From Maribellus maritimus (GTDB taxonomy: Bacteria > Bacteroidota > Bacteroidia > Bacteroidales > Prolixibacteraceae), in contig NZ_JAIKLE010000005.1 in the NCBI RefSeq assembly GCF_022267315.1, positions 124,001-188,000 on the forward strand: a stretch of DNA of 64,000 nucleotides, in the 5' to 3' direction. The translations under genes and the position numbers were made by a program. Position 1 is the stretch's first letter. Each line of letters begins with the position of its first letter. Positions 15,343-21,923 of this stretch are shown here, piece by piece. The notes beneath the pieces were generated by a model, which was not told the origin of the DNA, made no database searches, and saw nothing but the letters and a program-made list of their open reading frames with translations.

Positions 15343-16209
15343 ATGAGTATTACCGTTATATATACGATTGCCACATTAAGTGTAATTGGAACTTCGGCAG
15401 CAGTAATCCTTTTTTTTGTAGCACAAAAGTTTAAGGTAAACGAAGACCCGCGGATTGACCAGGTAGAGGAAGTTTTACCCAGTGCCAACTGTGGAGGGTG
15501 TGGTTTTGCCGGTTGCCGGGCATTTGCCGAAGCCTGCGTAAAAAATGGTGAACTGGCCGATTTATATTGCCCGGTAGGCGGCAATGAAACCATGAACACA
15601 GTTGCTTCCATCTTAGGACTGGAGGCTGTAAAAAAAGATCCAAGAGTAGCTTTTATAAGGTGTAACGGAACTTGCGACCACAGACCAAAAACAAGTCATT
15701 TTGACGGCGCAACAACATGTGCCATCGCATCATCCGTTTACAGTGGCGAATCTGATTGCCAATATGGTTGTTTGGGTTACGGCGACTGTTATGATGCATG
15801 CGATTTTGATGCCATTGACCTGCGGGAAGGAATGGGGGTCCCGTTAATTCTTGACGATAAGTGCGTAGCCTGCGGAGCTTGTGTTGACGCTTGCCCGAAA
15901 GATTTGATCGAGCTGCGTAAAAAGTTCCCAAAAGACAGGAAAGTTGTTGTTGCATGCCGCAACGAGGATAAGGGTGGAGTTGCACGGAAAGCATGTAGCA
16001 CAGCATGTATAGGTTGCGGAAAATGTCAAAAAGAGTGCAAATTCGATGCGATTACCATCGAAAACAATCTGGCATACATTGATTCAGATAAATGTAAACT
16101 TTGCCGGAAATGTCCACCTGTTTGTCCAACAAATGCAATCCTCGAACTGAATTTTCCACCGAGGAAAATAAAAAAGGAAGAAAAAGAAGAGTGTAATACA
16201 GCTAAATAG
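15343..16209 (+). CDS. rnfB: Rnf complex subunit B (iron-sulfur, ferredoxin-interacting)
   Basis: Electron-entry subunit of the Rnf ferredoxin:NAD+ oxidoreductase, 288 residues. There is one N-terminal transmembrane helix (residues 4-26), then the [4Fe-4S] domain CGGCGFAGC starting at Cys50. Ferredoxin-type clusters follow in CVACGACVDACP, CIGCGKCQKEC and CKLCRKCPPVCP. The cluster count and order match clostridial and Bacteroidota RnfB. It is the first rnf gene and is followed by rnfC after 6 bases. Confidence 0.96.
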   Translation: MSITVIYTIATLSVIGTSAAVILFFVAQKFKVNEDPRIDQVEEVLPSANCGGCGFAGCRAFAEACVKNGELADLYCPVGGNETMNTVASILGLEAVKKDPRVAFIRCNGTCDHRPKTSHFDGATTCAIASSVYSGESDCQYGCLGYGDCYDACDFDAIDLREGMGVPLILDDKCVACGACVDACPKDLIELRKKFPKDRKVVVACRNEDKGGVARKACSTACIGCGKCQKECKFDAITIENNLAYIDSDKCKLCRKCPPVCPTNAILELNFPPRKIKKEEKEECNTAK

Positions 16210-16215
16210 ACCAGA

Positions 16216-17547
16216 ATGTTAAAAACGTTCAAACTGGGAGGAGTTCACCCTCCTGAGAATAAGCTTTCAGCCGATAAAGAGATACAGGTTCTTCCTCTCC
16301 CGAAATCGGTGTTTATTCCGGTAGCTCAGCATATTGGAGCTCCGGCAACACCAACGGTAAAACGTGGGGATGAAGTAAAAGTGGGACAGGTTATTGCCAA
16401 AAGCAGCAGTTTTGTCTCCACCAATATTCATTCATCGGTTTCAGGAAAAGTTAAAAAAGTTGATTTTTCAGAAGATAGTTCGGGATATCCTAAGCAGGGA
16501 GTTTTTATCGATGTTGCCGGCGATGAATGGATAGATGAGATCGATCGCTCAGAAGAGTTGGCCAGAGAATTTGATATTGACGGAGCAGAAATCATCAAAA
16601 AGATTCAGGAAGCAGGAATCGTTGGTTTGGGAGGAGCTACTTTCCCCACACATGTAAAACTGGTTCCGCCAAAGGGAATGAAAGCCGAAGTATTATTAAT
16701 TAACGGTGTAGAATGTGAACCTTACCTCACTTCTGACCACCGTTTAATGCTGGAAAAAGCTGATGAAATTTTAGTCGGCATACAACTTTTAATGAAGGCA
16801 TTAAATGTGGAAAAGGCTGTAATCGGAATCGAAAACAATAAACCCAATGCGATTCAATTGCTTTCAGAAAAAACAAAAAACTACAAGGGTATTTTGGTTC
16901 AGCCTTTAAAAGTGAAATATCCGCAAGGTGGCGAAAAACAACTTATCAAAGCAGTTACGGGAAAAGAAGTTCCCTCAGGCGGGCTTCCAATTGCAGTAGG
17001 AGCCGTTGTGAGTAACGTAGGAACTGCTTTTGCAGTTTACGAAGCGGTTCAAAAAAACAAGCCTCTTTTTGAAAGAGTGGTTACTATAACCGGGAAAGGT
17101 GTTTCACAACCGTCAAATTTTAAAGTCAGGATTGGAACTTCAACTTCCGAACTGGTAGAATCTGCCGGAGGATTACCCGAAAGTACAGGAAAGGTTATTA
17201 GTGGTGGCCCTATGATGGGACGTGCCATTGCTTCGCTTGAAGTACCAGTTACAAAAGGCACTTCGGGAATTCTTATCATGAAAGAAGAGGAATCAAAACG
17301 TAAGGATTACATTGCCTGCATCCGTTGTTCGCGTTGTGTTTCAGTTTGCCCAATGGGACTGGAGCCTTATCTTTTAATGACACTTTCGCAGAAACAAATT
17401 TTCGACCGCGCAGAAAACGATCGCGTAATGGATTGTATTGAATGTGGATCGTGCAGTTACACCTGCCCTTCGGACAGGCCTTTACTCGACTATATACGTT
17501 TTGGAAAAGGGAAAGTGGGACAAATTATTCGTTCAAAAAAAAAATAA
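16216..17547 (+). CDS. rnfC: Rnf complex subunit C (NADH-binding, FMN)
   Basis: Peripheral Rnf subunit, 443 residues, which binds FMN and NAD(H) and links to RnfB. The N-terminal RnfC barrel begins KLGGVHPPENK. The Rossmann-like core includes GLGGATFPTHVK and NGVECEPYLT, followed by an SLBB region. Two [4Fe-4S] motifs, CIRCSRCVSVCP near residue 368 and CIECGSCSYTCP near 410, close the protein. Length and domains match the family. Part of the tightly packed rnfBCDGEA operon. Confidence 0.96.
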   Translation: MLKTFKLGGVHPPENKLSADKEIQVLPLPKSVFIPVAQHIGAPATPTVKRGDEVKVGQVIAKSSSFVSTNIHSSVSGKVKKVDFSEDSSGYPKQGVFIDVAGDEWIDEIDRSEELAREFDIDGAEIIKKIQEAGIVGLGGATFPTHVKLVPPKGMKAEVLLINGVECEPYLTSDHRLMLEKADEILVGIQLLMKALNVEKAVIGIENNKPNAIQLLSEKTKNYKGILVQPLKVKYPQGGEKQLIKAVTGKEVPSGGLPIAVGAVVSNVGTAFAVYEAVQKNKPLFERVVTITGKGVSQPSNFKVRIGTSTSELVESAGGLPESTGKVISGGPMMGRAIASLEVPVTKGTSGILIMKEEESKRKDYIACIRCSRCVSVCPMGLEPYLLMTLSQKQIFDRAENDRVMDCIECGSCSYTCPSDRPLLDYIRFGKGKVGQIIRSKKK

Positions 17548-17570
17548 TCAAATAATCTATACAACCGAAG

Positions 17571-18551
17571 ATGAGCAAATTATTAATAGTATCACCTTCA
17601 CCTCATGTTCATTCAGACGATTCAACCCAAAAAATAATGTACCGCGTTGTGCTGGCAATGATTCCGGCATTGGCATGGTCGGTTTTTGTTTTTGGTCTGG
17701 ATGCTCTGCGGGTTACCATAATTGCAGTTCTGGCATGTCTGGCATTTGAATTTCTGATTCAAAAATACCTGATAAAAGTAAAGCCAACAGTAACTGATGG
17801 CTCTGCGCTGATTACCGGAATTTTGCTGGCTTTTAATGTTCCTTCAAATATTCCGTGGTGGATAATCGTTATCGGATCGCTGGCTGCTATCGGTATTGGT
17901 AAACTATCGTTTGGCGGGCTGGGACACAATATCTTTAACCCCGCGCTGGTTGGAAGGGTTTTTATGCTGATTTCCTTTCCGGTTCAAATGACGTCGTGGC
18001 CTGTAAACAGACAAAGCGGAATAGATGCTGTTACTTCGGCTACTCCTCTTGGAATCATAAAAGAAGGTATTTCAAACGGCACCCCTATTTCTGAAATCTC
18101 GCAAAGCCTTCCCTCCACCTTTGAACTGTTTTGGGGCGGAATTGGAGGTTCGCTGGGAGAAATCTCAGCTGTGCTTTTGGTAATTGGTGGTTTATACATG
18201 TTGTATAAAAAAGTAATTACCTGGCATATTCCAGTTTCTATTCTGGCAACCGTGGGAGTAATCGCCGGAATCTTTTGGATGGTCAATCCGGCAATTTATA
18301 TCAACCCGCTTTATCATATTTTAACCGGAGGGTTAATGCTGGGCGCTATATTTATGGCAACTGATATGGTTTCGTCTCCCATGAACCCAAAAGGACAAGT
18401 TATTTATGGAGTTGGAATTGGTGTTATTACCATAAGCATCCGGTTATTTGGAGCTTACCCTGAGGGGATTTCATTTGCGATATTAATAATGAATGCTGTT
18501 ACTCCTCTTATTAATTACTATGTGAAACCTGTAAGATTTGGAGGGAAATAA
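17571..18551 (+). CDS. rnfD: Rnf complex subunit D (flavinylated membrane subunit)
   Basis: Integral membrane subunit, 326 residues, with about eight to ten helices (homolog of NqrB). The covalent FMN site DAVTSATPLG is present; the threonine in SAT is the expected phosphoester attachment point, loaded by ApbE-type flavin transferases. No apbE is seen in this window. The N-terminus SPSPHVHS is characteristic. The stop is 2 bases before rnfG. Involved in moving Na+ or H+ during ferredoxin oxidation; the ion cannot be told from sequence here. Confidence 0.96.
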   Translation: MSKLLIVSPSPHVHSDDSTQKIMYRVVLAMIPALAWSVFVFGLDALRVTIIAVLACLAFEFLIQKYLIKVKPTVTDGSALITGILLAFNVPSNIPWWIIVIGSLAAIGIGKLSFGGLGHNIFNPALVGRVFMLISFPVQMTSWPVNRQSGIDAVTSATPLGIIKEGISNGTPISEISQSLPSTFELFWGGIGGSLGEISAVLLVIGGLYMLYKKVITWHIPVSILATVGVIAGIFWMVNPAIYINPLYHILTGGLMLGAIFMATDMVSSPMNPKGQVIYGVGIGVITISIRLFGAYPEGISFAILIMNAVTPLINYYVKPVRFGGK

Positions 18552-18553
18552 CC

Positions 18554-19162
18554 ATGGCAAAACGAGAATCGACATTTATAAATATGGTGGTAACACTTTT
18601 CCTGGTTACCGGAATTGCGGCCGCCGGCTTGGGTTTTGTTTATGATTTAACAAAAGGACCTATTGAAGTAGCAAGGCTAAAGGCACAGAGTGAAGCAATA
18701 AAACAGGTTCTTCCTGAATTTGATACACTGGGAACTTCATTTAAAACACTGGCCGAAGAAGGCGGAGACAGTCTGGAATTTTTCCCGGCATATAAAAATG
18801 GAAGACTGGTTGGCACAGCCGTACAGACATATACAAAAAAAGGATTCAACGGATTTATCTCCATTATGGCCGGAATCGATGAGGCTGGAAATTTTTCCGG
18901 ATATTCAGTTTTGGAGCACGAAGAGACTCCCGGTTTGGGTTCAAAAATGGATGTTTGGTTTAACAACCCGGAGAAACCCAAACAATTTGTTATTGGAAAA
19001 AACCCGAACAATACAAATTTTACCGTTTCAAAAGACGGGGGCGACATTGATGCAATAACAGCATCTACAATCTCATCAAGAGCCTTTTTAGATGCGCTTA
19101 CACGAGCGTATTCTTCTTACGAAAAAAATAGTGACGCAACTTCCGGATTAACCGGAAATTAA
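18554..19162 (+). CDS. rnfG: Rnf complex subunit G (flavinylated periplasmic subunit)
   Basis: NqrC/RnfG family, 202 residues, with one N-terminal membrane helix (residues 11-31) and an FMN-binding domain outside the cytoplasm. [13 protein letters not shown] and [12 protein letters not shown] are family hallmarks. The flavinylation site is DAITASTIS, with Thr in AST as attachment residue. It starts 2 bases after rnfD, suggesting translational coupling. Confidence 0.95.
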
Positions 19163-19172
19163 AAATAATACT

Positions 19173-19757
19173 ATGAACCAGTGGAAAAACTTTTCAAAAG
19201 GATTTATTAAGGAAAACCCGGTTTTTGTTTTGCTTTTGGGAATGTGCCCTACGCTTGGAGTTACTTCGTCGGCGATTAACGGGCTTGGAATGGGACTGGC
19301 AACAACTTTTGTTTTACTGATGTCAAACATTGTAGTTTCGCTGGTTAAGAATCTTATTCCCGAAAAAGTTCGCATCCCGAGTTTTATAGTAATTATAGCG
19401 GCGTTTGTTACCATTGTGCAATTAGCTATGCAGGCCTATTTACCATCATTGTATAAAAGTCTGGGCTTGTTTATCCCGTTGATTGTTGTAAACTGTATTG
19501 TTCTCGGCCGTGCCGAAGCATTCGCATCAAAAAACACACTGGTTTCATCCGCAATTGACGGAGTTGGAATCGGACTTGGATTTAGCTTTGCTTTGGTTTT
19601 ACTGGGAAGTATCCGAGAAATTTTGGGCAGTGGTAAAATATTCAACATCACCTTGTATTCTGAAAATTACGTAACCCTGCTATTTGTTTTGGCACCGGGC
19701 GCATTTATTGTTTTGGGTTATTTAATTGCCATCATCAACCGGATTAAAAAGAATTAG
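19173..19757 (+). CDS. rnfE: Rnf complex subunit E
   Basis: Polytopic membrane subunit of the NqrD/RnfE family, 194 residues, with six predicted helices. [17 protein letters not shown] carries the conserved Cys that, in NqrD/RnfE proteins, helps bind the intramembrane [2Fe-2S] cluster with RnfA. A second Cys occurs in [12 protein letters not shown]. The spacer to rnfA is 11 bases. Gene order B-C-D-G-E-A matches many anaerobic Bacteroidota and Clostridia. Confidence 0.95.
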
Positions 19758-19768
19758 GAGGAAAAACA

Positions 19769-20341
19769 ATGAACTACTTAGTAATTATCATAGGAGCAGT
19801 TTTAGTCAACAACATCGTACTGATGCAGTTTTTGGGGATTTGTCCGTTTTTGGGTGTTTCCAAAAGACTTTCAACTGCCATTGGAATGACAGGAGCCGTT
19901 GCTTTTGTAATGGTTCTTGCCACCATTGTAACTTATTTAATTCAAAAATATGTACTCGACAGTTTGGGATTGGCATTTCTGCAAACCATAGCATTTATTC
20001 TGGTTATTGCATCGCTGGTTCAGCTAGTCGAGATTATACTCAAAAAAGTAAGCCCGGCATTGTACCAGGCTCTCGGAATTTTTCTTCCTTTAATCACAAC
20101 CAACTGTGCCATTTTGGGTGTTGCTATTCTAACCATTCAAAAAGAATTCAATTTACTTGAAGGTGTAGTGTATGCCATTGCCAATGCAGTGGGTTTTGGA
20201 TTGGCACTGGTTCTATTTGCAGGTATTCGCGAACATCTCGACTTACAGGATGTACCTAAAGGTTTAAAAGGAACACCGATTGCTTTAATCACTGCAGGAA
20301 TTCTGGCGATGGCCTTTATGGGATTTTCAGGATTAGTATAA
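19769..20341 (+). CDS. rnfA: Rnf complex subunit A
   Basis: Polytopic membrane subunit homologous to NqrE, 190 residues with six helices, inverted in topology relative to Rnf[16 protein letters not shown] and [12 protein letters not shown] contain the paired Cys residues that bind the [2Fe-2S] cluster with RnfE. It is the last gene of the operon, followed by a terminator hairpin at 20364. Confidence 0.96.
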
Positions 20342-20400: not shown

Positions 20401-21483
20401 TCATACTTCCCCTTCTTTTATCCGTTTATAGTGGCAAAAAAGCAGGTTCCCCATTTCATCGCGAAGATGCATACCGCTCCCCTCGCAATATTTAAAATAT
20501 TCGCAAAGCTCACACTCTCCCGTTTTTAACCATTCCCTGTTTCTAAATATGGAATAATTCTTTTCCCAGATTTCCCTGAAACTATCAGCGTAAATATTTC
20601 CCTGAACAAAGTTATCTTTTAAATTCGGGCATGCCGATATTGAGCCATCAATTAACACAGAAGCAATATTTATTCCTGCCCGGCAAAAAAACAGGTTATC
20701 TCTTACTTCGCTTTCATAATTTCCCAGAAAACCTTCGCAGCCATAATTTATTTTTATGTCTCCTTTTTTGCGCTCCGCAGCAATAAAATCAAAAAGCTGC
20801 CTGAATTGTTTTGGCGGCAGCTGTAATTCATTGTGAACTTTTGCCCTGCCAACAGGAAACACGGTAAACAAACGCCATTGTTTAACACCGTTTTCCAACA
20901 ACACTTTTTTTAATAAAGGTAACTCGTCAAAATTCTTTTGATTTACACAAGTCACAACATCAAATCCCAAACCGTTTACCTTTGACAAAAGAGCAATACT
21001 TTTTACCGCTTGCTGAAAACTGTTCCGGTTGCCGCGTAACCAGTTATGTGAATTTTCCAAACCGTCTAAACTAATTGTAACGGCACGCATTCCCACATTT
21101 AACAACGACTCCAGGCGGTTTGCCGAAAGTTGTAATCCGTTGGAAACAATTCCCCACGGAAATTCTCTCTTGTAAAGTTGTTGTCCGCACACCTCCAAAT
21201 CTTTTCGCAACAAGGGTTCGCCACCAGTAAATACAATCATTGTTTTATGCGGGTCAACAATTTCTTTAATATCGTCGATTGCATTAATAAAATCCTCAAC
21301 CGGCATATCTTTTACCTGCGACTCCTTCTTACAATCGCTCCCGCAATGCAAACAATTCAGATTACATCTTAATGTGCATTCCCAAAAAATATAATTTAAA
21401 CGGTGGAGTTTCTTTTCATTTTGTTTATAGCGGCGAAACAATTCCAACGCTATCTTTTTCCGAAAAGAGATATCTGAAATCAT
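20401..21483 (-). CDS. Radical SAM/SPASM enzyme of rSAM/lipoprotein system
   Basis: Radical SAM protein, 360 residues, with the cluster motif C40-x3-C44-x2-C47 inside a Cys-dense run (also Cys36 and Cys51), GGEP in the SAM-binding strand, and SLDGL. The C-terminus holds a SPASM/twitch-like set of cysteines (CRAG, SACP, CELCEYFKYC, FCHY) for auxiliary [4Fe-4S] clusters, as in peptide-modifying maturases. It closely resembles the described but uncharacterised group found beside small lipoproteins in Bacteroidales (TIGR04133-type, from memory). The ATG overlaps the stop of the lipoprotein gene by one base (TAATG), so the two are translationally coupled. I infer that the enzyme modifies the lipoprotein or its precursor; the reaction is unknown. 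Confidence 0.88.
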   Translation of the reverse strand: MISDISFRKKIALELFRRYKQNEKKLHRLNYIFWECTLRCNLNCLHCGSDCKKESQVKDMPVEDFINAIDDIKEIVDPHKTMIVFTGGEPLLRKDLEVCGQQLYKREFPWGIVSNGLQLSANRLESLLNVGMRAVTISLDGLENSHNWLRGNRNSFQQAVKSIALLSKVNGLGFDVVTCVNQKNFDELPLLKKVLLENGVKQWRLFTVFPVGRAKVHNELQLPPKQFRQLFDFIAAERKKGDIKINYGCEGFLGNYESEVRDNLFFCRAGINIASVLIDGSISACPNLKDNFVQGNIYADSFREIWEKNYSIFRNREWLKTGECELCEYFKYCEGSGMHLRDEMGNLLFCHYKRIKEGEV

Positions 21484-21923
21484 TAATTTTTGTCCTTCAG
21501 TTTTATGTCAAATTCCTTATTAGTCTCTCCATTGTACCAACCTCCGTCTCCTCCGTTAAACTCAGGATCAACAAATGCAACCACTGTATCAAGCTTTTGA
21601 TATTCGCCATTTTCAGCATCATCTACGTCCTCAAAATAAATTGGAAACTCCTGGTCGGTAGGGAAATCGACTTTCCCCACTTCGTATTGCCCACTTTCAT
21701 TGGTATAGGTTGAATCATAACTCATTTTTACCTTAATCCCTTTGATTCCGACGTCATTTTCATTTGTCACCTTTCCGGCAACAATAAATGTTGCACTTGG
21801 GGTACCATATTCTGCAACTGTGCCATATTCACACCCTCCAAAAGAGCAGGCAGTCCCTATTCCAAGAACGGATATAATAAATGCAATAATTCTATTTTGG
21901 CTTTTCAAAATTCGGTTTTTCAT
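21483..21923 (-). CDS. Radical SAM-associated putative lipoprotein
   Basis: Small exported protein, 146 residues, resembling the lipoprotein partner of the rSAM/lipoprotein system (TIGR04134-type, from memory). A signal segment (about residues 11-25) is followed by two candidate lipid cysteines, Cys26 (GTAC) and Cys31 (FGGC); neither lipobox is canonical. The hallmark CEYG begins at Cys31. EYGT appears twice, six residues apart, before SATF. Residues 48-80 look like a carboxypeptidase-regulatory-like beta-sandwich (GKVTNENDVGIKGIKV, TNESGQYEV). The C-terminal half is acidic. First gene of the coupled pair. Confidence 0.85.
   Translation of the reverse strand: MKNRILKSQNRIIAFIISVLGIGTACSFGGCEYGTVAEYGTPSATFIVAGKVTNENDVGIKGIKVKMSYDSTYTNESGQYEVGKVDFPTDQEFPIYFEDVDDAENGEYQKLDTVVAFVDPEFNGGDGGWYNGETNKEFDIKLKDKN

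Follow-up and report, generated by a model that had tools for sequence, protein, structure and literature searches.

A radical SAM/SPASM enzyme paired with a Tyr-Gly-tagged lipoprotein in Maribellus maritimus: a candidate lipoprotein splicease

Maribellus maritimus, a member of the Bacteroidales, encodes a radical SAM/SPASM enzyme and, directly upstream of it, a small putative lipoprotein (Table 1). Both genes lie in a 64,000-nucleotide stretch of contig NZ_JAIKLE010000005.1, referred to here as the window, and they share base 21483, where the stop codon of the lipoprotein gene and the start codon of the enzyme gene overlap as TAATG; the coordinates, strand and translational coupling given in an initial annotation of this DNA were right. 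The enzyme matches the NCBIfam profile TIGR04133 (rSAM_w_lipo) with 570.9 bits (cut-off 425; profile positions 1-350 of 350) and the lipoprotein matches TIGR04134 (lipo_with_rSAM) with 94 bits (cut-off 39.8), so that the HMM search places both proteins over the curated cut-offs of the families that the annotation had named. NCBIfam describes both families as hypothetical equivalogs with no function given, and the window's own assembly holds one over-cut-off match for each. PF04055 (Radical_SAM) and PF13186 (SPASM) are over cut-off in the enzyme, and the lipoprotein has sub-threshold Pfam matches only, the best being a carboxypeptidase-regulatory-like domain. Nothing essential sets the pair apart from other TIGR04133/TIGR04134 systems: the lipoprotein gene stands directly upstream, as in most relatives, and its product carries a two-site form of the family's Tyr-Gly (YG) tag. 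Next to the pair, at window positions 15343-20341 on the + strand, lies a cluster for Rnf-type electron transport, with ferredoxin-like, FMN-binding and Rnf-Nqr proteins. A functional link between the pair and these genes was considered and rejected: phmmer matches to RnfA (6 loci) and RnfE (5 loci) were confined to the window, its own genome and the loci L032, L041 and L046, and among the loci fetched only these three share the Rnf neighbourhood with the window's genome.

Table 1. Genes and sequence features of the pair (window coordinates)
Feature	Position	Strand	Basis
Radical SAM/SPASM enzyme, 360 aa, TIGR04133 family	20401..21483	-	ORF and NCBIfam match
SPASM region: C249, C267, C285, C324, C327, C333, C350, H339	20434..20739	-	146-row conservation
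Radical SAM cluster motif CNLNCLHC, codons 40-47, then G48-S49 (HCGS) and C51	21343..21366	-	
Putative substrate lipoprotein, 146 aa, TIGR04134 family	21483..21923	-	sequence, NCBIfam 94 bits
Second copy EYGTP, residues 38-42, aligns with family YGxP	21798..21812	-	alignment A3
First copy EYGT, residues 32-35, directly after C31	21819..21830	-	sequence
C26-SFGG-C31, codons 26-31, alternative lipidation Cys	21831..21848	-	relatives compared

The conservation of the enzyme was followed over 146 distinct enzymes longer than 300 aa, taken from samples of the window's order and phylum and from one scan with the window enzyme, and deduplicated on residues 40-200, so that related rows are among them. 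Three loci that the simple gene caller did not recover (L034, L040 and L092) and three fragments (L079, L080 and L084) were dropped before counting, and the plasmid members L172 and L173 stand outside these counts. Around the cluster motif, C40 is kept in 99%, C44, C47 and C51 in 100% and C36 in 88% of the rows; the ‘five Cys around the main cluster motif’ of the initial annotation are thus literally present. All seven Cys of the SPASM region are invariant, and in an alignment with seven reference enzymes the usual CX2CX5CX3C of SPASM appears without its fourth Cys. The sequence HCGS behind the cluster Cys is found in 8/8 splicease-like references and in 0/12 others. In the enzyme model the SPASM fold is of the peptide-modifying kind (structure alignment A2, 45 rows). 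No fused RRE is found among the enzyme's Pfam matches, and in the structure comparison the match of the model to SuiB begins at SuiB residue 95 or later; we reject an RRE fused to the enzyme, and a diverged one may still be there.

The lipoprotein contains GTACSFGGCEYGTVAEYGTPSATF, in which EYGT occupies residues 32-35 and recurs six residues on, at 38-41, just as first noted. Either C26 or C31 may be the lipidated residue: in a comparison of 21 relatives, L042 and L026 are among those with the second Cys alone and L020 among those with the first alone, and a lipobox rule that takes the first fitting Cys may choose C26 where C31 carries the lipid. A first YG copy directly behind a Cys is also seen in L041, L032, L060, L061, L050 and L036. 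When the CEYG region was compared across homologues, as the initial annotation had proposed, the second copy lined up with the family's YGxP, in an alignment (A3; 49 of 65 candidates plus the window) whose rows were picked for holding YGxP. Close YG pairs, 5-9 residues apart, number 18 among 156 YG-bearing partners, and some of the 18 may be chance; 12 pairs, the window's included, have the same place just before the beta-sandwich and a spacing of 6 or 7, and one stands in a different context (L064, KYGMPISKYGMPP). The window's CEYGTVAEYGTP is therefore a two-site form of the YG tag and not unique. In an AlphaFold model (alignment of 50 rows) the two copies lie after the signal helix (2-26) and before the first strand (43-53), at low confidence (mean pLDDT 57 for residues 21-30 and 59 for residues 31-40). 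The rest of the model is a beta-sandwich with weak fold matches to transthyretin-like and other beta-sandwich chains (E 1e-5 to 1e-3), and a PDB sequence search with the lipoprotein returned a single match, at E 0.91.

Most enzymes of the family have a YG lipoprotein nearby. At least 600 bp of upstream sequence was available for 138 enzymes, and a signal-bearing ORF lies directly upstream of 132 of them, YG-containing in 124. The 14 others comprise five with a YG lipoprotein elsewhere beside the enzyme (upstream in L031, L070 and L081, downstream in L151 and L152), L166 with CYA instead of CYG, L160, where the adjacent ORF has CYA and a further ORF in the vicinity has CYGSP, L097 with a short remnant as partner, and six with no YG lipoprotein in view near the enzyme (L098, L102, L108, L118, L121 and L128); the N-termini of L098, L102 and L108 are similar, and these three may be one subfamily with substrates elsewhere. 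A separate lipobox rule finds a nearby lipobox ORF with YG for 129/146 enzymes, in keeping with the two-gene unit first described. YGxP lies at most 60 residues from the lipobox Cys in 131/197 adjacent lipobox ORFs, compared with 1/201 control ORFs, which are lipobox ORFs more than 1 kb away in the same loci. The counts of upstream and lipobox ORFs were taken without selecting rows for the motif. Outside the order, the neighbour of the G160 enzyme (L010) bears a signal and YG but lacks a lipobox Cys, and that genome gave no TIGR04134 match; in G124, a TIGR04134 homologue over cut-off occurs with no TIGR04133 match, and this homologue is without YG (n=1). The TIGR04133 enzymes L124 and L134 stand in tandem, and the lipoproteins that belong to the two differ in type (CAKYGDIYD, ACYGTPHD).

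The YG-bearing partners are 51 to 277 aa long, and several of 51-66 aa hold little besides a signal peptide and, after a brief spacer, KYG. At L111, L107, L113, L116, L114 and L122 the partner lipoproteins are very small or contain repeats (51-142 aa), frequently occur as two consecutive genes, and bear one to three KYG sites in otherwise low-complexity sequence. In the tables of 173 sites, which take YGxP first and otherwise the first YG, a choice that fixes Y and G and favours Pro, Pro is found two positions behind Gly in 156. Tyr is preceded by E in 54, C in 46, K in 21, M in 18, V in 11, A in 10 and L in 7 sites, and by six others once each; the residue two after Tyr is Thr in 85, Val in 22, Ser in 21 and Gly in 3, and is of at least 14 types. 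The site follows the lipobox Cys at a distance from 1 to over 60 residues, directly behind it (CYG) in 44 partners, and 92/156 partners have no Cys after the lipobox Cys. The position of YG tracks the enzyme tree (FastTree), with 11 changes over 129 labelled enzymes versus 43-58 in 200 shuffles. The initial annotation had taken EYGT as the hallmark at the likely modification or processing site; YG holds up as the likely site, whereas EYGT does not, the hallmark being YG(x)P and Glu preceding Tyr in only 54/173 sites.

An even sample of the window's order has TIGR04133 matches (E 1e-80 or better) in 94/393 genomes, and 19 of these 94 hold more than one. A phylum-wide sample has TIGR04133 in 3/395 genomes, two of which are the window's own and another of its order. 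Of the 44 loci returned by the scan with the window enzyme, most carry the label of Bacteroidales or one of its families, six are labelled Treponema, one Fibrobacter and one Chlorobiota. Named relatives include rumen MAGs, Labilibaculum and Mariniphaga, and close relatives occur on plasmid records of Parabacteroides, Phocaeicola and Treponema.

By profile, the enzyme is nearer to TIGR04103, GDL-motif and Agathobacter enzymes than to MftC, NirJ, TIGR04053 and PqqE. The TIGR04133 profile gives 205.8 bits to the Agathobacter enzyme, 188.9 to that of Aureibacter, 185.2 to G205, 174.1 to G245, 162.8 to the Nostoc TIGR04103 enzyme and 153.3 and 151.6 to two Azospirillum GDL enzymes; a Paenibacillus enzyme without HCGS (149.5) scores above the Tropicibacter HCGS enzyme (135.2). 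Then come MftC (129.2 and 127.1), NirJ (124.8), TIGR04053 (117.5 and 105.7), TIGR04347 (106.6) and PqqE (70.6); four further radical SAM proteins from the window's genome score lower again. A reverse profile of eight HCGS splicease-like rows gives the window enzyme 205.3, compared with 166.4 for MftC as the best of 12 others, and spans 155.3-226.2 (median 194.6) over the 146 TIGR04133 rows. As single queries, the Nostoc enzyme scores the window enzyme at 126.9 versus at most 100.1 for the 12 others and the Agathobacter enzyme at 143.8 versus 119.8, while with the Azospirillum GDL query the window enzyme (108.0) falls below five non-members (up to 114.7). Against family profiles the window enzyme scores alike for TIGR04053 (142.9), TIGR04103 (137.9, below its cut-off of 725) and AhbD (137.0; no AhbD sequence is in the reference set). 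A quick tree without long branches, holding 21 of the 146 TIGR04133 rows, has TIGR04133 and the eight on one side with SH-aLRT 92, which is suggestive at most, and a fuller tree with long branches does not resolve the join of the TIGR04133 and splicease-like groups (56/0); as judged by trees, the join is weak. The references in trees and profiles were matches of our own searches and do not sample SPASM enzymes evenly. When the Nostoc and Agathobacter enzymes were searched against plasmids, no TIGR04133 record stood among the matches listed (40 of 378 and 12 of 438).

Among known systems, the pair can be compared with the PlpXY spliceases. Published work reports that PlpX with PlpY excises tyramine at Xaa-Tyr-Gly, with MYG and LYG as natural sites, and passages of PMC10533398 count 27 characterised and 939 predicted splicease systems; FtsZ was tagged with motifs of this kind, two tags with PIRPLYGLPI not being accepted in place and two with PIRPGYGLPI being accepted. 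The mass loss is printed there as 135.0757, and C8H9NO computes to 135.068. PlpXY and the window family have in common a radical SAM domain with SPASM, the HCGS variant and an X-Tyr-Gly site, and the Nostoc Nif11 precursor, which ends SIALYGLPPELF, has Pro two residues after Gly, like the window family. They differ in the substrate, a leader peptide in PlpXY and a lipoprotein with a signal peptide in the window family; in the window enzyme's extra conserved C51 and C179 and the lack of CX3C in its SPASM region; and in that no PlpY-like RRE gene lies beside the window enzyme. Nor was such a gene seen beside TIGR04133 enzymes; a test by adjacency and size found an ORF of at most 130 aa no more than 80 bp downstream in 12/142 loci, two of them YG lipoproteins. 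We take IPR026482 to be the nif11-class maturase entry. Since a passage of PMC11002830 places PlpX in IPR026482, TIGR04103 is presumably the PlpX group.

Peptides beside other relatives of the enzyme also bear on the tag. GDL-motif maturases (TIGR03913) resemble the window enzyme in carrying HCGS, and the DUF1843 peptides beside them have Y[GAM] near the N-terminus; unlike the window pair, these are small peptides without a signal, served by longer enzymes, and to our knowledge their chemistry has not been described. GDL peptides from three plasmid records and one genome have PYG, LYG, LYA, MYA or MYM near the N-terminus, Ala or Met often replacing Gly. Such DUF1843/GDL peptides with Y[GAM] stand beside HCGS radical SAM enzymes at L171, L174, L183 and L185, which suggests a possible role for them as XYG-type substrates as well, with Gly replaced by Ala or Met in some. 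On an Agathobacter rectalis plasmid, an unannotated 68-aa ORF ending VMYGTGVRM (L170:3743-3949) lies 81 bp before an HCGS radical SAM gene and is possibly an overlooked precursor of the XYG kind. At the G205 locus the protein immediately upstream of the enzyme has no YG, though a secreted-looking one more than 1 kb upstream does; the Tropicibacter locus showed no small YG ORF.

Taken together, the tag, the pairing, the profile kinship and the kin peptides make tyramine excision at XYG appear the most likely reaction, and we give about even credence to the proposal that the enzyme is a lipoprotein splicease working without the usual RRE partner. Unlikely, if still credible, is an alteration of Tyr or Gly that removes no backbone atoms (hydroxylation, epimerisation, dehydrogenation or alpha-carbon chemistry at Gly) or that marks the site for cleavage. 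It would agree with YG being what partners of differing length and domain have in common, but the nearest profile relatives include the TIGR04103 group, equated here with PlpX, which excises tyramine. The CYG subfamily, in turn, speaks against a splicease, as its residue X would be the lipid-bearing Cys itself, which might hinder processing.

Crosslinks at the Tyr have to be considered as well. MftC links Tyr and Val, and PqqE, which also acts on Tyr of a peptide, links Glu and Tyr. A passage of PMC8326336 likewise has MftC acting on Tyr of a peptide; both are SPASM enzymes, as here, but they score lower by profile (129.2 and 127.1; 70.6) and have no HCGS. A PqqE-like Glu-Tyr link was rejected because Glu precedes Tyr in only 54/173 sites. 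Triceptide enzymes crosslink an aromatic ring to a nearby beta-carbon, the third residue of their motif having a beta-carbon, and we know of no cyclophane enzyme that requires a constant Gly after Tyr. A crosslink of this kind within the motif is rather unlikely. The peptide-modifying kind of SPASM fold and the prevalence of Thr, Val and Ser two after Tyr (85, 22 and 21 of 173) would suit it, and all but 3 of the 173 sites could qualify by their third residue; against it, that position is of at least 14 types, and as it is Gly in 3/173 sites it cannot always be the crosslink partner. The initial annotation favoured a thioether or other crosslink through a Cys of the lipoprotein, and the window protein does have two Cys (C26 and C31) near its YG sites. 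This reading found no support in the survey and is highly improbable, because 92/156 YG partners have no Cys beyond the lipobox Cys, where sactipeptides and ranthipeptides have a conserved core Cys in the substrate, and because the distance from Cys to site runs from 1 to over 60 residues. It is also improbable, to a lesser degree, that the lipoprotein is no substrate at all and serves as scaffold or sensor while the pair acts on another molecule: the six enzymes without a partner in view could have substrates elsewhere, but conservation of a short tag in proteins as small as 51 aa is what one sees in a substrate.

Under the splicease reading, the enzyme would bind the pre-lipoprotein in the cytoplasm, before export, and, with no RRE gene seen next to it, would recognise the substrate by the signal-peptide region. 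A 5'-deoxyadenosyl radical would then be made and act on the X-Tyr-Gly of the flexible linker that follows the lipidation site, excising tyramine and so cutting most of the Tyr from the backbone; in the window protein, both Glu-Tyr-Gly sites could be processed. Export and lipidation would follow, and an electrophilic ketoamide would be displayed beside the membrane, in front of the beta-sandwich domain. In the CYGTP subfamily, the lipidated Cys itself would be the beta-residue. The product would probably serve as a covalent protease trap or inhibitor tethered to the membrane, or as a covalent attachment point; a passage of PMC11117315 calls splicease products protease inhibitors.

What is added here to a catalogued family without chemistry is the chemistry proposed for it, conditional on the splicease reading; if that reading fails, the pair is an ordinary TIGR04133/TIGR04134 member. 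A text search of the literature returned 0 papers for TIGR04133 or the lipoprotein's NCBI name, and no paper on the pair stood among the matches listed, judged by titles, abstract starts and passages of PMC10533398, PMC8326336, PMC11002830, PMC10885120, PMC11117315 and PMC10373908; the splicease survey of Scott et al. 2022 may include TIGR04133, and PMC4573289 describes other radical SAM families in Bacteroides. The proposal yields a prediction for a single experiment, a loss of 135.07 Da at X-Tyr-Gly, for a system present in 94/393 sampled genomes of the order. If it is true, backbone-edited residues would also occur in membrane lipoproteins and not only in peptide natural products, and an enzyme that works without a leader-binding partner would be useful for protein labelling.
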